From a virus, in the IMG/VR virus record IMGVR_UViG_3300042197_004335, positions 1 through 22,041 of that record: DNA of 22,041 nucleotides; one strand, 5' to 3'. Below, piece after piece: positions 5,735-21,899 of the stretch. Numbering within the stretch: the first letter of the stretch is position 1; each line of letters begins with the position of its first letter. Under the pieces are notes generated by a model that was given only the letters and a program-made list of their open reading frames with translations, was not told where the DNA came from and made no database searches. Position numbers and translations under genes: made by a program.

Positions 5735-8700
5735 TTATCTACTCGTTATACCAAAAGAATTTTCTATCACTGCAGTCAACACCGGTCCTAGAGACTTGAT
5801 CTTAGTCGCTGTTATTTCTTGTATGATTTCAATGTCGTCGACAGTGCAAGAACTAGAAAATATTTCATCTGCATTAGACTTAATTTCTTGCAGGCTACCA
5901 AAGGCTAGATCTTCTCGTTTAGGTACTATCACGATATTAGATATACGTGGAGCCATCTTCATCATAACATATGTCGCTAGCTCCGAAAAATAAAAAGTAT
6001 CTCCGAAGTCCCAGTTTTCTATGCTGAAGAATTCGTTTATAGCTTCCACTATACCGGATTTAATTTCGCTGTCGCTGATCACCAGTGATTCATTTTTCGT
6101 AACTTTAAAAGTGGCCTGCAACGAAGAATCAGCTTTACTGCCAAAAATATTTTTAAATTTTACAGAATGGTAAACTATTTCGTCGCTGATTGATTTGTTT
6201 TTTTCTATTTCTGAAGAAAAATTAATGTACAACGAATCTGTGCTCGGTGGCAGGGGTCGATTTTCTAGCTCTCCCTTGATCCATTGACCGTATTCGGTTT
6301 CATAATTTTTAGTCAGGATATAGATGTCAATTATATTAGTAGTAGAAGGATCTAATCTATAGCCGTCGCTGGCGTTGTGAATATATTGAAACTTTATTTT
6401 GTTTCTTCCGACTAGACCACGATAGTTAGGTTCTACAATAAATGTAGAGAGACCGGCGATATATCTTTTCACTGAATTTTCTTCTATCACGTATACCAAT
6501 GCACCATTGGCCACTGGTTGGCTATTAAGGGCCTCTTGGGTGGTAAAGACTTGGATTAAATTTTTTCCTTGGGGATAATAATAAAAATCATAGACGCCAT
6601 CGGGTCCTAGTCTATTTTCTTGGAAGATTATTTTATTTTGTGGATTAACATTTGGTGCTACGAAGAAATCAAATACACTGGGATCATCTACGACGCCGTC
6701 ATCGTCACTGTCGAAAAAGCTGACGGATATTTTCTTGGTATCAATATAACCGTCGGCACCTTTATAATCTTCGGTTATCTCCCAATCTAGATCGTTTTCG
6801 ATCGCAGCGATCGGTGGTTCTGGGAGAGTATTGATATCTAATATAGAAATCTTATCTTTAATAACTTTACCTGTTTTTAAATTAAAAATTTTATCTGAGC
6901 TGTCAAAAAAGAATCTTACCTCTTGCTCACTTTCGAAAACGTATCTTATTCCCCTATATGAAACCACATAATTGTCACCGTCGGTTTCAAAACGCACTAC
7001 CCAACTGGCATCTTGTTGCGTGCCCGATTGGTCACCCGACTTACCTAGATTAAATCTAGAATTTTTATTAATGTTAGTGCTGGTTATTATAGACCATGTA
7101 GTTTCTATCTGATCGTATCTCAGGCCAAATTCTCTACGAGCAAAGATTAATTCTATAGCTCTAGATTTAACTCCGTCTGATAAAACCGTAATTAAAGGAG
7201 GAACGATCGTCGATAGTATGCTATCTGTAGGAATGCTTTCATTAAACACGATTGGCCCCAATCCTGTGCTTAAGGTATAATCTTCACCGGCTGTGCCGTC
7301 ACCTACAACATTAACCACTTTTACCCAGATATATTTTTTAGCTCCGGCAGTGGCCGCAGACTGATCTATTATCTTGTTGTCCACCGAAAATAATTTACCG
7401 TCGGGTGGTACAAATTTTAACATCGATCCTACCTTCACAGATCGAAATATAGAAGATGTAAAATCACCGAGTTTCAGCGTGCTTCCTGTGGCTGTATCTA
7501 TCAGCACGCCCGTGGATCTATTATATTCATCAGTTACTTGATAAAAATAACAAAGGTCCTCTGGTTTAATATCTCTAAATGGAAAACTAGAAAGATAAAA
7601 ATCTCTAGTAGTTTTCATAGACAATATTTTTTCTACGTCATCGATCAATACCGCTTCTATGTCTGTAAGGGTATCAAACTTAAATCTAAAATTTTCTAGG
7701 ATTTCCTCTCTATACAAAATCCCGTCATTGGCAAAAATATTAGTATTACTGTATTTTCCCGTAGTGTCTTTAAGATCGAAAAACCTCGATATACCTGAAC
7801 TGGTTCGATTAACCGCTTTAGACTTTAAAATTTCTTGGTTGGTTGATATGGGAACTAGATTATAATCCTCTCCGGTGATCATCCTATTCTGAGTGTAGTA
7901 GACCGATGGTGCATTGTTTTTTATCGATTCTGTAGATTCAGTTTCGGTTGCATTTGTTACATTATATGTCAATGATAAAGTCAACGTTATTACTTCTTGC
8001 TTGTTCCTTCTGCTAAGGTAAGGTATCGATACTGTGACATTTTTAATAGAATTAGTGTCTATAGAATAGGTCAGACCGATAGCAGTTCTATAATATAATT
8101 TAAATCTACCTTTAGGTAGATCTCCGAAAGTGCCGTCCGAAAAAATCAACCTTACCTTGTCGTCGGTTCTAGTTAATACTGTATAGATTTTTCTTTCGTT
8201 CTTAGAAAGAGAATTATAAATGACATTGTTACCTACTACCGAATCTACTTTTTTCCATAAATCTGTTTCTTGATTAGCATCATCTAATTCGTAGAGCCAG
8301 ACATCGTCATTGTTAATATTAATAGATTCTACGTCAACGGTTTCGTTGGGAGATGGACTAGATATATTAAAGTTATTTTCTTTTAATGATCCTTGTTTAA
8401 ACATCATAAAGAATCCGGTATTCGAACTTGATGCACCGCGACCGTCATCTCGATATATAAAGGCCATCTTATTGCCGACGCGGGGTGCTTCTTCGTAGAT
8501 CTTATCTGCGTCCTTGAAGGATGATGACACTATCTCGAAGGACATGTTCCGACCGTCGATGTTCTTATCGAAAGAAAATAAAGGAACTTCCTCTAGGCTA
8601 GAATTGAATCTGTATTGTTGTGTCTTGATGCCGTCGATGGTTCGATCGTCGATGGGTCTGCCGTACTGGCTGGCTTCAGGGAGAGCGGCATTTATAGCTT

Positions 8701-9172
8701 TGATAAATTGCTCGTACCAATTTGTATTGGTTGGATCATTCCATACAATAGTAGAACCTGAAAGGTTCCTACCATTAGAATCTATTATGGTTTCAGAGGT
8801 AGAAACAGATAGGATTTTTAACAGACCTGACGCTGATTTGGTTCTTTGGGGAGAATAACTTAACAAGCGAGCTAATCTCAGCACGCTTTCTCGACGTTCA
8901 GCAAGTTCTATAAAATTTTCTCTGGCATTTAGATCGAATCTAAATGCTAGGTTTTGCCCTAGGAAAGAAATAAGATCGATTAGAGCAAGATATTCGCTGG
9001 ATTCTATGTAATCGTTGAAGTCCTCAGGATAGTTTTCTCTGAGGTAAGTGATCATAGTCCTTCTCAGGCTATCAAAATCATAGCTTCTAAAATCTGCGTT
9101 TTTAAGGCTTTGATAGATCTTCTTCCAATCTTCGGCTACCAGCAGTTTGTTTTGACGATCAACACTTGACAT
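5735..9172 (-). CDS. gp6: baseplate wedge protein gp6
   Basis: T4 gp6 forms the ring that joins the baseplate wedges around the hub. The first 120 residues look typical of the family: an acidic and aromatic helix region (DWKKIYQSLKNADF), then YIESSEYLALIDLISFLGQN and a conserved RLARLLSYSPQRTKSASG block, as in gp6/gpJ-type wedge proteins. The C-terminal 130 residues (FSIENWDFGDTFYFSELATYV, then APRISNIVIVPK) fit the gp6 dimerisation end. At 1145 residues it is far longer than T4 gp6 (about 660); the extra length is a beta-rich middle. It starts at ATG 9172 with AGAGGA about seven bases upstream. A late-promoter motif lies in the short gap before it, so it can be transcribed separately from gp25. 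The next gene begins 3 bases after its stop. Confidence 0.9.
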   Translation of the reverse strand: MSSVDRQNKLLVAEDWKKIYQSLKNADFRSYDFDSLRRTMITYLRENYPEDFNDYIESSEYLALIDLISFLGQNLAFRFDLNARENFIELAERRESVLRLARLLSYSPQRTKSASGLLKILSVSTSETIIDSNGRNLSGSTIVWNDPTNTNWYEQFIKAINAALPEASQYGRPIDDRTIDGIKTQQYRFNSSLEEVPLFSFDKNIDGRNMSFEIVSSSFKDADKIYEEAPRVGNKMAFIYRDDGRGASSSNTGFFMMFKQGSLKENNFNISSPSPNETVDVESININNDDVWLYELDDANQETDLWKKVDSVVGNNVIYNSLSKNERKIYTVLTRTDDKVRLIFSDGTFGDLPKGRFKLYYRTAIGLTYSIDTNSIKNVTVSIPYLSRRNKQEVITLTLSLTYNVTNATETESTESIKNNAPSVYYTQNRMITGEDYNLVPISTNQEILKSKAVNRTSSGISRFFDLKDTTGKYSNTNIFANDGILYREEILENFRFKFDTLTDIEAVLIDDVEKILSMKTTRDFYLSSFPFRDIKPEDLCYFYQVTDEYNRSTGVLIDTATGSTLKLGDFTSSIFRSVKVGSMLKFVPPDGKLFSVDNKIIDQSAATAGAKKYIWVKVVNVVGDGTAGEDYTLSTGLGPIVFNESIPTDSILSTIVPPLITVLSDGVKSRAIELIFARREFGLRYDQIETTWSIITSTNINKNSRFNLGKSGDQSGTQQDASWVVRFETDGDNYVVSYRGIRYVFESEQEVRFFFDSSDKIFNLKTGKVIKDKISILDINTLPEPPIAAIENDLDWEITEDYKGADGYIDTKKISVSFFDSDDDGVVDDPSVFDFFVAPNVNPQNKIIFQENRLGPDGVYDFYYYPQGKNLIQVFTTQEALNSQPVANGALVYVIEENSVKRYIAGLSTFIVEPNYRGLVGRNKIKFQYIHNASDGYRLDPSTTNIIDIYILTKNYETEYGQWIKGELENRPLPPSTDSLYINFSSEIEKNKSISDEIVYHSVKFKNIFGSKADSSLQATFKVTKNESLVISDSEIKSGIVEAINEFFSIENWDFGDTFYFSELATYVMMKMAPRISNIVIVPKREDLAFGSLQEIKSNADEIFSSSCTVDDIEIIQEITATKIKSLGPVLTAVIENSFGITSR

Positions 9173-9190: not shown

Positions 9191-9199
9191 TATTTATTG
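9191..9199 (-). promoter_or_regulatory. T4-type late promoter motif before gp6
   Basis: On the minus strand this reads CAATAAATA, close to the T4 late consensus TATAAATA. It lies between the gp25 stop and the gp6 ATG and is followed by an AGAGGA ribosome-binding site. The same CAATAAATATT string stands before the first gene of the operon at 15284-15292. That repetition, in two of the few non-coding gaps, supports a gp55-dependent promoter. Confidence 0.6.
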
Positions 9200-9204
9200 T
9201 GTTT

Positions 9205-9222
9205 ATTAACTGCGCAGTTAAT
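9205..9222. repeat. 18-bp perfect palindrome at the gp25/gp6 junction
   Basis: ATTAACTGCGCAGTTAAT is a perfect palindrome that includes the gp25 TAA stop. As RNA from the minus strand it could fold as a seven-base-pair stem with a GCGC loop, without a U-run after it. It could be a weak 3' end or processing hairpin for the gp25 message, or a protein-binding site next to the late motif. The palindrome is seen directly; its role is not known. Confidence 0.5.
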
Positions 9223-14427: not shown

Positions 14428-15258
14428 TCAAATAAATCCGTTTTTATCTTCGCCTACTACATATTTTCCGTTGACAAAATCTTCGAGATTAAATTCGTTG
14501 ACTTTCTTCCTGCTGTATAGTGGATACAGGATTATATTCAAGGTACTCTTCACTGGAGCCCAGCTTATTCCGCTGGACACATCAGCGTCGTTCCAGAAAT
14601 CCGATCCTGCTCCGGCATAACCTAACCCCGTGGCAATATAATCAACGTCGTCGGGCAGAGTCATCTCGAAACTCTGTACTACAACGGGAACATTATTAAA
14701 AACGAAATCGCCGTACCCACTGAGCTTGACTACCGGTGGCGGTGACCCTAGATTAGCCGAGGTTCCAAAACTCATTTTCGTCAACGATCTAAGAAAATGT
14801 ACTGCTGCTACCCAATATCTAGCTTCATAGGTATCCTCTATGTAGAACTGAGCAGAGACATTTATAATTTCGACTTTGCTGTTCTGATAAGCGAGATAGG
14901 GATAATTACTATGCACCACATCCATAGGCTGATAGTTTGCCGTATGTCCGATTGTTATCAAAGGTGTATAAGGAAAAACTAGACCATCTGTAGTTCTAAG
15001 AACATCGAACAGCTCGCTGTCTACCATAGTAGGGGGAAGGCTTAATTTGACTCTCCAATCGAACTCGCCCATCGATCTCGTTGATACCACCGCTTTTCCG
15101 CTGGGGAGGCCGGCTTCTCCTCCGGCAGGAAAGTTTCCGGTTCTGGAGCTAAACTTACCTATGGCACTGCCTACTGCTTTGGCAACCCCTACTGCAGCCG
15201 TAGCTGTGGTCACGATCGCCGTGGCTTTGGTAAGAAAATTATTGACTTTGCTAACCAT
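14428..15258 (-). CDS. baseplate-tail tube junction protein (gp48/gp54-like)
   Basis: The protein has 276 residues. The N-terminal 40 residues are rich in Ala, Val and Thr, hydrophobic but interrupted by Lys. The core contains DWRVKLSLPP, then YWVAAVHFLRSLTKMSFGTS and GSPPPVVKLSGYGDFVFNNV, followed by LPDDVDYIATGLGY and SWAPVKSTLNIILYP. As I recall, this pattern belongs to the tail-tube cap or initiator proteins gp48 and gp54 of T4-like phages, which close the baseplate and start the tube; I cannot decide between them. It is the first gene of the minus-strand operon. It starts at ATG 15258 with AGAGGA ten bases upstream and a late-promoter motif at 15284-15292. Confidence 0.7.
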   Translation of the reverse strand: MVSKVNNFLTKATAIVTTATAAVGVAKAVGSAIGKFSSRTGNFPAGGEAGLPSGKAVVSTRSMGEFDWRVKLSLPPTMVDSELFDVLRTTDGLVFPYTPLITIGHTANYQPMDVVHSNYPYLAYQNSKVEIINVSAQFYIEDTYEARYWVAAVHFLRSLTKMSFGTSANLGSPPPVVKLSGYGDFVFNNVPVVVQSFEMTLPDDVDYIATGLGYAGAGSDFWNDADVSSGISWAPVKSTLNIILYPLYSRKKVNEFNLEDFVNGKYVVGEDKNGFI

Positions 15259-15278: not shown

Positions 15279-15294
15279 GTCAATATTTATTGAC
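15279..15294. repeat. inverted repeat shared by divergent promoters
   Basis: GTCAATA-TT-TATTGAC has two perfect seven-base arms around a two-base centre. It contains the whole minus-strand late motif CAATAAATA and reaches into the plus-strand -35 box TTGACA. It could be only the chance result of two overlapping promoter elements, or an operator for a dimeric regulator. Confidence 0.55.
15284..15292 (-). promoter_or_regulatory. T4-type late promoter motif of the baseplate operon
   Basis: The minus strand reads CAATAAATATT, identical over eleven bases to the motif before gp6. It stands 26 bases before the ATG of the gp48/54-like gene, with AGAGGA between them. It should need gp55, which is encoded by the divergent gene next to it. 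Confidence 0.65.
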
Positions 15295-15318
15295 ATTATA
15301 AACCGCTGAGTTTATTAT
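15290..15318 (+). promoter_or_regulatory. sigma70-type promoter of the gp55 operon
   Basis: TTGACA at 15290-15295, a 17-base spacer and TATTAT at 15313-15318 make a near-consensus promoter for the host RNA polymerase. The expected start lies just before the AAAGGA ribosome-binding site (15325-15330) and the gp55 ATG at 15336, giving a very short leader. This fits early or middle expression of the operon with the host sigma factor. Confidence 0.7.
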
Positions 15319-15335: not shown

Positions 15336-16169
15336 ATGAAAAAAGTAAACTACCTTAACAATCGAGATTTACTAGCAGAGATACACAAAAGCAAATGCAG
15401 TTATTCTAGTTTTACCAAAGCAGATTATCATAGATACGACATAATTCTAGCTAGTCTAGAAAAAATCAATATCAGGACTATAGCCGAAGCTAAGAGGAAT
15501 CGAGCCAAACGATTGGCCCATGAATTATACGAAGCAGAAAAAAAGCAGGATCCTAAAGTAAAACAGGCCGAATTTGAGATCGATTATAAAAAGATAGAAA
15601 AAACAGATCTAATCTTTAGGATCATGACCTACGATCACGTTCCTCTAGAACCAGGAAGGAAGCGCAGTCCAAAAACATCGGCAGATCACAGGGAAAAGGT
15701 CAACTTTCCGGCTTTCCAACATTGGAAATTCAATGACAAAGACGAGCTAGTCTGTGTAGGTAAAAGCCATTGGGTTGGTCCTATGAAATCTGGGCGTTTC
15801 TCTAAAGATCACGGCCAGATCACTGATAACCTAGCCCGCATGTTTATCAAACTCTGCGAGCGGTATGCTACCCGTGGTAATGTCCGTGGTTATACCTACA
15901 ACGACGAAATGAAGGGGCAAGCCATCCTACAGCTCACACAGATCGGTCTCCAGTTCGACGAAAGCAAATCAGACAATCCTTTTGCCTACTTCACTGCCGC
16001 TGTGACAAATTCGTTTGTGCGTGTGATCAACATCGAGAAAAAGATGCAGAACATTCGAGATGATATTTTAGAGATGAACGGCATGAATCCCAGTTACACT
16101 CGCACTATTAATGCAGAATACGATGCAGGATTAAAGAGAGAGCAGGACCTTAACAGAGAAGCTGACTGA
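15336..16169 (+). CDS. gp55: late-transcription sigma factor gp55
   Basis: gp55 is a minimal sigma factor that binds host RNA polymerase and recognises the TATAAATA late -10 element, working with the sliding clamp and gp33 in T4. The N-terminus (VNYLNNRDLLAEI) resembles the start of T4 gp55 (YVNNKELLQAI). Residues about 165-255 form the region-2-like core: KLCERYATRGNVRGYTYNDE, then LQFDESKSDNPFAYFTAAV and NSFVRVINIEKKMQNIRDD. Between them is an insert of about 120 residues with a basic helix, FRIMTYDHVPLEPGRK and a KSHWVG motif. It has 277 residues against 185 in T4. The ATG has AAAGGA five bases upstream. The stop TGA overlaps the gp47 ATG (TGATG), so both are made together. Late motifs elsewhere in this window are its likely targets. 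Confidence 0.92.
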   Translation: MKKVNYLNNRDLLAEIHKSKCSYSSFTKADYHRYDIILASLEKINIRTIAEAKRNRAKRLAHELYEAEKKQDPKVKQAEFEIDYKKIEKTDLIFRIMTYDHVPLEPGRKRSPKTSADHREKVNFPAFQHWKFNDKDELVCVGKSHWVGPMKSGRFSKDHGQITDNLARMFIKLCERYATRGNVRGYTYNDEMKGQAILQLTQIGLQFDESKSDNPFAYFTAAVTNSFVRVINIEKKMQNIRDDILEMNGMNPSYTRTINAEYDAGLKREQDLNREAD

Positions 16170-18954: not shown

Positions 18955-19237
18955 GGAAAAGACAACAACTAACACTTCCGATGGGGTACCCAAGGAAAAA
19001 GACGACGACATACATGATCAGCTGATAAAACAGATGATCAAATATGCGTTCTGGAACACGAGATTTAAAGATTTTGGCTATCACCATAGCTCGATACGGG
19101 CTAGGAATGCTCTGACACAGATAGCAAAATTATGTAAGATTAGGCGAGAAGAGATACTCAAAGAAAGAACGAGATTGGATGCTATCTACAAAAACCAAAA
19201 GGCACTAAAAAGGAAATCAAAAAAACTACATAGTTGA
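18947..19237 (+). CDS. small basic protein downstream of gp46, unknown function
   Basis: The ATG lies inside the last codons of gp46 and the frames overlap by eight bases. The N-terminal 20 residues are Thr/Lys/Asp-rich and probably disordered. Residues about 24-60 contain IKQMIKYAFWNTRFKDFGYH, then RARNALTQIAKLCKIRREEI, and the C-terminus is Lys-rich (LKRKSKKLHS). I recall short proteins with a similar RARNAL..I.KL..RR pattern in T4-like cyanophages in the same place, without a known role. The basic helical character and the coupling to gp46 make nucleic-acid binding or a gp46/47 accessory role conceivable, but this is a guess. Ends at TGA 19235-19237, which overlaps the next ATG. Confidence 0.75.
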   Translation: MTKEKTTTNTSDGVPKEKDDDIHDQLIKQMIKYAFWNTRFKDFGYHHSSIRARNALTQIAKLCKIRREEILKERTRLDAIYKNQKALKRKSKKLHS

Positions 19238-19677
19238 TGTCATGGCTATACAAACATCAACCTGTGGAGGAAATACCAGAGGGCTATATCGGATTTGTTT
19301 ATATCATCACCAACAAAATCAACGGTAAAAAATACATAGGCAAAAAATTAGCTCAATTTAAAAGGACTAAACCTCCTTTAAAAGGCAAAAAACTCAAGAG
19401 AAGATCTACAGTAGAAAGCGATTGGCGAGAATACTGGGGTAGCTCTGAGCGTTTACAGGCAGATGTTGACCAACTAGGCCCAGACAACTTCACTAGAGAA
19501 ATCCTCTATTACTGCACTTCCAAGGCTGAAATGAGCTATATCGAGGCTAGAGAGCAATTCGATCGCAGGGTCCTAGAGACAGATGAATACTACAACGGTA
19601 TCATCAACGTCAGGATAGGCGGATCGGAAAAGCTGCGCAAGGCACTTTTAGAACAGCAAAATAGCAACGCCGTTTGA
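19237..19677 (+). CDS. GIY-YIG family nuclease, stand-alone
   Basis: The GIY-YIG signature is clear at the N-terminus: GFVYIIT at residues 19-25 and KKYIGKK at 31-37. A basic block follows (PPLKGKKLKRRSTVESDW) with the expected catalytic Arg region, then a YWGSS motif, EMSYIEAREQF with the candidate metal-binding Glu, and a YYNGIINV segment with the late conserved Asn. It has 146 residues, essentially one catalytic domain with no DNA-binding extension as in Seg homing enzymes. I recall similar single-domain proteins in many T4-like phages. It could degrade host DNA, act with gp46/47 in repair, or be a homing nuclease; the first two suit its fixed place in the operon better. ATG 19237 is chosen over the in-frame TTG at 19234 because it overlaps the upstream TGA (TGATG). 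Confidence 0.85.
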   Translation: MSWLYKHQPVEEIPEGYIGFVYIITNKINGKKYIGKKLAQFKRTKPPLKGKKLKRRSTVESDWREYWGSSERLQADVDQLGPDNFTREILYYCTSKAEMSYIEAREQFDRRVLETDEYYNGIINVRIGGSEKLRKALLEQQNSNAV

Positions 19678-20967: not shown

Positions 20968-21822
20968 TTATACGAAAAAATTCGATTGGTCCATGGTTAT
21001 AGGAACATTCAGCTCATCTGGAGCACCTTTGGACCGTTCTTCTTCGGTGGTTATGATCTTCATAGGAGGTATGCTGAATTTTTTCTTCTGCTCCTCTAGA
21101 TGATCTATTATGCGTTTGTAGAATTCTTTGTCAGCGTTCTGTATGAATTCGTTGATCATAGCCTGATCTGTGACTTCTTCTCCGTCGACCTGTATTTTTT
21201 CCACGCTTTGTCCTACCATGTTTATAGTTAGGTCTGTGAGTTTTTTAAAACTGTTGGTAAACATGGATAGTTTTTTAGCATCGTCTATGGAATCATCGCT
21301 GACGATATTCAGTATCCGTTGCTCTTCTAGGCTCTTGATCGCGTTCTGCGTGAACTCTCTGTAGTTCAACGGTCTAGTATAGATCTTGAGATTATCGTCT
21401 ATTTCGATAACCGGATCGTAGACTGCTGCCAGCAGCCTGTCCAGCATCACCCGTAGGTCAGTCACATATGATCTCGATTCGTCTAGTCCTGGAATCACTG
21501 CAGTTATGTCTAAACTTTCACCGTAGGTAGCGATACGTATGGCTATTAATATAGCATCGATGTCGATAGAAGGGATCTGCCAGGCGTTCTTTATGTTGGG
21601 AATACAGCTTTGGATGACATCTACCGTGCTCTGACCGTTGATCAAAGCATCAGGGGTGCGTATGATCATCTCGTCTTTGGCGGTCATAGCAAACACTGGA
21701 TACTCACCGGTTTCGGTGTACTCTATAGATCCTTTGGGATAAAAATTTCCCGAGCTAGGTAATCTCAGATAGATCTTAGGCTGTCTATAGTATCGCTGCA
21801 AAGGGTTGCGTTGATTTTCCAC
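20968..21822 (-). CDS. gp26: baseplate hub protein gp26-like
   Basis: A 284-residue protein with the pattern of T4-type gp26 hub proteins: KIYLRLPSSGNFYPKGSIEY at residues about 16-35, then FAMTAKDEMIIRTPDALING and VDVIQSCIPNIKNAWQIPS, followed by DIDAILIAIRIATYGE. The C-terminal 100 residues are helical and charged (EFYKRIIDHLEEQKKKFS), ending in FFV. T4 gp26 is a hub component of about 208 residues. The start is GTG 21822 with GGGAG nine bases upstream; no ATG is near. A late-promoter motif stands about 45 bases upstream. With the gp51-like gene it forms a second, separate baseplate unit on the minus strand. Confidence 0.85.
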   Translation of the reverse strand: MENQRNPLQRYYRQPKIYLRLPSSGNFYPKGSIEYTETGEYPVFAMTAKDEMIIRTPDALINGQSTVDVIQSCIPNIKNAWQIPSIDIDAILIAIRIATYGESLDITAVIPGLDESRSYVTDLRVMLDRLLAAVYDPVIEIDDNLKIYTRPLNYREFTQNAIKSLEEQRILNIVSDDSIDDAKKLSMFTNSFKKLTDLTINMVGQSVEKIQVDGEEVTDQAMINEFIQNADKEFYKRIIDHLEEQKKKFSIPPMKIITTEEERSKGAPDELNVPITMDQSNFFV

Positions 21823-21866: not shown

Positions 21867-21874
21867 TATTTATC
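21867..21874 (-). promoter_or_regulatory. late promoter motif of the gp26 unit
   Basis: The minus strand reads GATAAATATC, with the ATAAATAT core of the other minus-strand late sites. A start near 21861 would give a leader of about 40 bases to the gp26 GTG. Confidence 0.6.
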
Positions 21875-21899
21875 TGGGCAGTTTATGGTGAAAAAATAA

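Follow-up and report, generated by a model that had tools for sequence, protein, structure and literature searches.

The gene for the late sigma factor gp55 and a baseplate operon diverge from one short junction in the window analyzed here, a virus fragment of 22,041 bases in IMG/VR, and this arrangement raises the question of whether use of a late promoter in the junction could limit transcription of gp55 itself. The gap between the start of gp55 (15336, plus strand) and that of the divergent baseplate gene (15258, minus strand) is 77 nt. A first-pass annotation had placed two promoters in this gap, a late promoter for the baseplate genes overlapping the -35 box of a near-consensus promoter for gp55, and had suggested that gp55, by loading polymerase on the late motif, should block its own gene.

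Two divergent promoters share bases in the gp55-baseplate junction

The features of the junction are as follows.

15336-16169, plus strand: gp55, late sigma factor, 277 aa (PHROG, structure match, gp47 and gp46 next)
14428-15258, minus strand: virion structural (baseplate) gene, first of its operon (PHROG virion structural protein, 2.5e-53)
15284-15291, minus strand: AATAAATA, -10 octamer of the T4-type late promoter for the baseplate operon (from sequence, 7-mer bias and relatives)
15290-15295, plus strand: gp55 promoter -35 box TTGACA; 15290-15291 are common to the late octamer
15313-15318, plus strand: gp55 promoter -10 box TATTAT (TATAAT in most relatives), 17 nt from the -35 box
15299-15314, strand not assigned: element E, TAAACCGCTGAGTTTA, 9 bp from the late hexamer
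15279-15294, strand not assigned: inverted repeat GTCAATA-TT-TATTGAC, incidental, with an arm that is missing in relatives

The gene at 15336 is assigned as gp55 by its match to the PHROG family 'sigma factor for late transcription' (4.9e-76), by a profile match (hmmsearch) to T4 gp55 (7d7c_F, 1e-9), and by its AlphaFold model, which matches the same chain at 1.3 Å over 88 columns in the sigma region 2 fold. It is followed by gp47 and then gp46, as in most named jumbo relatives. T4 gp55 has 185 aa; the jumbo-phage proteins carry an N-terminal extension of ~150 residues (residues 1-150 in the window) that is conserved and confidently predicted, with no recognizable match in the PDB. This extension was considered as a DNA-binding domain reading element E and rejected, the sole good structure match being to the sigma-2 part of T4 gp55. 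A hydrophobic C-terminal motif that binds the sliding clamp is a trait of the T4 gp55 family; inspected by eye only, the C-terminus of the window protein (...LKREQDLNREAD) has no obvious hydrophobic motif. On the other side of the junction, the baseplate operon also carries gp53-like wedge and gp5-like hub genes, the wedge gene being the second of the operon (PHROG baseplate wedge, 2.4e-26).

Sigma70-type promoters are defined by a -35 box TTGACA, a spacer of 16-18 bp and a -10 box TATAAT. The gp55 promoter, TTGACA-17-TATTAT, agrees with this consensus at 11/12 positions with a 17 bp spacer and is the best sigma70-like site between 12000 and 18500 of the window, in agreement with the first-pass description of it as near-consensus. 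Its -35 box directly abuts the late motif on the minus strand, where CAATAAATA spans 15284-15292, and the two truly share bases; all letters of the overlap are present as first described. The inverted repeat into which the late motif had been drawn (GTCAATA at 15279-15285, TT, and TATTGAC at 15288-15294) is also present, but is private to the window, and we rejected it as an operator, as relatives keep TATTTA-TTGAC without the GTCAATA arm. Among 20,000 random 77-mers with the dinucleotide composition of the window, a late motif arose in 2%, a promoter of at least 11/12 in 0.06%, and the two fused in none. The late motif by itself is not rare (10 matches in the window when up to one mismatch is allowed, where 11.6 would be expected), so what makes it credible is where it lies and that it is conserved.

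The late motif marks structural genes

T4-type late promoters carry an octamer at -13 to -6 (PMC1524935); the variant CTAAATA is known from Aeh1 (PMC1524935), and for jumbo phage CBB the late motif has been predicted to be ATAAATA (PMC5259590). The minus-strand octamer AATAAATA of the window resembles the T4 sequence TATAAATA, is kept in 78/78 relatives, lies at -13 to -6 of the predicted start position, and has a structural (baseplate) gene downstream. In a count of 7-mers in two large relatives and the window, in which no motif was assumed, ATAAATA had the strongest sense bias of any 7-mer in front of predicted genes (40 sense vs 11 antisense). Across four contigs, [A/C]TAAATA lies 15-60 bases upstream of 77/523 ORFs in the sense orientation vs 20 in antisense, and the ORFs that have it almost never carry a strong sigma70 site. 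Genes with the motif and a PHROG hit are largely structural, encoding tail sheath, baseplate and virion structural proteins, while those with a sigma70 site are replication genes and small genes, including a DnaB-like helicase, an ATPase and an HNH endonuclease. The motif is also found upstream of the baseplate wedge gene gp6 in 60/60 distinct loci. A gp55 homologue is encoded, and gp55-RNA polymerase is predicted to recognize the baseplate late promoter.

The overlap is fixed in close relatives

The first-pass annotation had proposed comparison of the junction among related phages, and in these the overlap is kept without exception. A protein search gave 80 IMG/VR loci with ~72-83% gp55 identity, of which 78, unselected for the junction, had readable upstream DNA. 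In all 78, TATTTA[K] and TTG are joined, with 0 or 1 base between them, and the -10 box lies 17 nt from the -35 box; TTGAC is complete in 74. The same spacer of 17 and the same gap of 0 or 1 are found in 174/174 readable sites, a set that includes contigs picked by pattern and is not independent. The flanking distances among readable sites are variable, from 15 to 63 between the -10 box and the gp55 start and from 11 to 59 between the baseplate start and the late motif, and high conservation is confined to a block of 36 bp, outside which it drops.

A scan of viral contigs for the exact fused element, TATTTAKTTGAC-N18-TATAAT, gave at least 119 sites; among the matches listed, 95 immediately precede gp55, and ~6 others are at gp55 starts truncated by the end of a contig. 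The fused overlap is nearly specific to gp55. In three contigs of 185, 183 and 160 kb, with 38, 23 and 14 strong sigma70-like promoters, only that of gp55 has TATTTAK within 60 bp upstream.

A conserved element upstream of the late motif ties the promoters together

In the spacer and -10 box of the gp55 promoter, conservation exceeds the requirements of a sigma70 promoter. The conserved sequence here, element E, reads TAAA[C/A]TACGCAC[A/T]TAA in the late sense and lies 9-10 bp upstream of the late motif; it lies under the gp55 spacer, fills most of it and runs into the -10 box. Related sequence occurs at two further sites in the window.

9191-9199, minus strand: CAATAAATA, late motif for the gp6-like baseplate wedge gene at 5735-9172; a motif is present at gp6 in 60/60 loci
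9206-9221, strand not assigned: TTAACTGCGCAGTTAA, a further copy of E that goes with the late promoter of gp6 and overlaps the stop codon of gp25
21867-21885, minus strand: late motif GATAAATA with a fused E-like sequence (offset -3), upstream of a baseplate hub gene (20968-21822)

The copy upstream of gp6 lies 5.5 kb from the junction, at a place with no divergent gene and no gp55 promoter. With a matrix built from gp55 junctions only, the best match to E upstream of gp6 falls at offset 9/10 in 58/60 distinct loci, compared with 3.2% in shuffled sequences, and scores of at least 10 are reached in 85% vs 0.5%. Since E recurs at the same distance at gp6 without a gp55 promoter, it belongs to the late promoter; TTGAC, which occupies the -35 position at gp55 and is not kept at the gp6 late promoter, belongs by the same comparison to the gp55 promoter. 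The late motif and E are thus the baseplate late promoter, and in the clade of the window the gp55 promoter lies over both. The two-promoter picture of the first-pass annotation was right about the shared bases and missed E, which ties the two promoters together.

These data bear on a simpler reading, in which the conserved block is a single plus-strand gp55 promoter, extended upstream, with the late motif a coincidence. Conservation of the whole 36 bp as a unit at gp55 is what such a promoter would give, but TATTTA and E recur together at gp6 where TTGAC and the gp55 promoter are missing, ATAAATA is sense-enriched upstream of structural genes, and the other strong sigma70-like promoters of the three large contigs have no TATTTAK within 60 bp upstream. 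We rejected a single extended promoter as very improbable, and continue with two promoters of which the late one includes E.

When all 242 late-like heptamers of the window and four contigs were examined, E was found at offset 9/10 in 13 cases, at -3 in 5 cases, mostly the hub-gene junction, and elsewhere in 3. Because these matches include orthologous copies, the independent genes with E are few: those of the gp55 junction, gp6, a 332-aa tail gene and the hub gene. A scan of the collection for E with the late motif, made in one orientation and at one spacing so that other classes may escape, gave at least 125 sites; among the matches listed, 78 belong to gp6 and ~41 to the baseplate gene that adjoins gp55, with a few at genes for hub or tail proteins. 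At the hub gene of the window (21867-21885) the E-like sequence is fused to the late motif, and three large relatives have a similar arrangement; this geometry, at offset -3, differs from that at gp6 and gp55.

E is an imperfect dyad with its best symmetry centered in the gp55 spacer (0.60). It was considered as a covarying operator and this was dropped, as the halves do not covary at gp55 or at gp6; we keep only the description as an imperfect dyad element. A separate putative DNA-binding protein at E, regulating the two baseplate late promoters, might nevertheless repress or time gp55, since its site would fill the gp55 promoter at the junction. That E has a fixed place in two baseplate operons, and at a small number of further hub or tail genes, is consistent with such a protein, as is the symmetry, whereas the lack of covariation between the halves and the dominance of the same orientation at both operons are more like a directional promoter element. 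We judge repression or timing of gp55 by an E-binding protein to be possible though on the unlikely side.

The junction in distant jumbo phages

The divergent order of baseplate genes and gp55 holds in the jumbo phages examined, which have a short junction with a late motif at different spacings. The distance from the late motif to the -35 box is 3-7 in most of the RaK2/CBB group, ~12 in SCTP-2, ~23-25 in PA5oct and XacN1 (~23 in PA5oct itself), and 73 bp in Phosso; in 23/38 PA5oct-like contigs it is exactly 36 bp. According to the first-pass annotation, motifs well separated in relatives would speak against the switch. Separation of this kind is found only outside the clade, and only in Phosso is the spacing clearly more than a single polymerase could span. 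As read from these junctions, the tight overlap is clade-specific, and the separation in more distant relatives counts against a general switch. No such junction is present in the cyanophages S-PM2 and MED4-213 or in Ochrobactrum phage OC, in which a uvsW-type helicase gene precedes gp55 and is oriented the same way.

Traces of E may extend to some of these phages. In PA5oct-like contigs, where the gp55 promoter has a different position, offset 9 is by far the commonest best position for E, although many single scores are weak, and in the alignment the ATAAAC and TTTTTAT arms are conserved. The best match is at offset 9 in Atu_ph07 (p = 0.003), Phosso (0.08) and PA5oct (0.10), and not in RaK2, CBB, SCTP-2 and XacN1. 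Several neighboring features were also seen: the rhizobial jumbo phages Phosso (L201, 3243-3785) and Atu_ph07 (L202, 3339-3893) have a nucleotidyltransferase-like gene between gp55 and the baseplate genes, a large unnamed ORF lies next to gp55 in XacN1, and the PA5oct-like contigs (L245-L291) share a conserved GAAA box immediately ahead of the gp55 -35 box.

The varied short junctions of other jumbo phages, together with the 77-nt gap of the window, are also what compact packing could produce; with little room, and with sigma70 transcription of gp55 already off late, the overlap would have no regulatory effect. The gap of 0 or 1 was considered as proof of selection for competition and set aside: because E and the fixed 17-bp spacer already lock the geometry, the constant distance between late motif and -35 box needs no such selection. 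Against packing, the overlap is exact in all 78 unselected relatives while the flanking distances vary, and no other strong sigma70 promoter is so placed in the three large contigs. Packing without regulatory effect is in our view an explanation to be taken seriously, with rather less than an even chance.

A model for transcription from the composite region

We return to the interpretation that the 36-bp region comprises two divergent promoters that would not be usable at once, with negative feedback on gp55 by occlusion, to which we give about an even chance. Early, host sigma70 polymerase would read TTGACA-17-TATTAT to express gp55, with gp47 and gp46. Later, gp55-polymerase would open the minus-strand late promoter AATAAATA for baseplate expression, helped or gated by E at about -21 to -36. 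The late complex would cover the whole gp55 promoter, and as late complexes fill, gp55 transcription would fall. In T4 the sliding clamp adds 13 bp to the upstream footprint of the late complex (PMC2988020); a late complex extended in this way would cover the gp55 promoter from the -35 box to about the start site, and it is because of this geometry that mutual exclusion is expected. CBB is reported to be without recognizable gp33 and gp45 (PMC5259590). Negative feedback on gp55 from use of the late promoter is plausible on the layout of the junction, although transcription from host sigma70 promoters may already have ceased by the late phase, in which case occlusion would be redundant. We infer the timing, the exclusion of sigma70 polymerase by a polymerase or an E-bound factor, and the importance in infection.

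A more speculative extension combines these elements. The late promoter would have two parts, a T4-type -10 element and E, be dedicated to two baseplate operons and be read by an undescribed factor, with gp55 wired into the same site, so that baseplate expression and gp55 shut-off would be one binding event. We hold this only tentatively.

Comparison with known systems

Overlapping divergent promoters with mutual exclusion are a general theme in bacteria and phages. As in those systems, two polymerases here would face away from shared DNA, so that occupancy of one promoter would block the other; the difference is that one promoter makes the sigma factor expected at the other, a possible self-limiting loop. 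T4 middle promoters have a MotA box at about -30, and the distance between E and its -10 element is similar, but E differs from the MotA box in sequence and has imperfect dyad symmetry, and the -10 element it accompanies is a late rather than a sigma70 one. As with T4-type late promoters (TATAAATA), an octamer, here AATAAATA or ACTAAATA, lies a short way upstream of structural genes, and the phage encodes a gp55 homologue. T4 late promoters are described without conserved upstream sequence (PMC7892883; PMC2988020), whereas the two baseplate promoters here, at the gp55 junction and gp6, carry conserved E at about -21 to -36. The closest arrangement is that of CBB and GAP32, in which gp55 is divergent from baseplate genes with the late motif 3-7 bp from its promoter; that promoter is of the middle type with a non-sigma70 -35 sequence, TGAAACG (PMC5259590), no E was found there, and the late motif and -35 share no bases.

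The junction is thus an assembly of known promoter kinds in a new, conserved and interlocked arrangement, with an upstream late element that is absent from T4. In the open literature searched, we recognized no paper on gp55 autoregulation or promoter overlap, and found no description of how T4-like phages lower their own late sigma factor; if the proposed occlusion is true, a phage may switch gp55 off simply by using a late promoter. In this group, in contrast to the -10-only picture from T4, a late promoter can include a specific element upstream, and E marks baseplate genes. The 36-bp region, conserved as it is in many environmental jumbo phages (giant T4-like phages) that form a large group, leads to a specific, testable prediction.

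Two further observations were made in the course of this analysis. A window ORF at 19234-19677, beginning MMSWLYKHQPVEEIPEGYIGFVYIITNKINGKKYIGKK and lying downstream of the gp46 gene, is GIY-YIG nuclease-like by eye. At locus L211 (G001:C1:29284-38609), strong promoters of the early type are clustered in front of small genes, and several of these promoters share TTGACWTTTTGG...AAGTGCGC-TATAAT.
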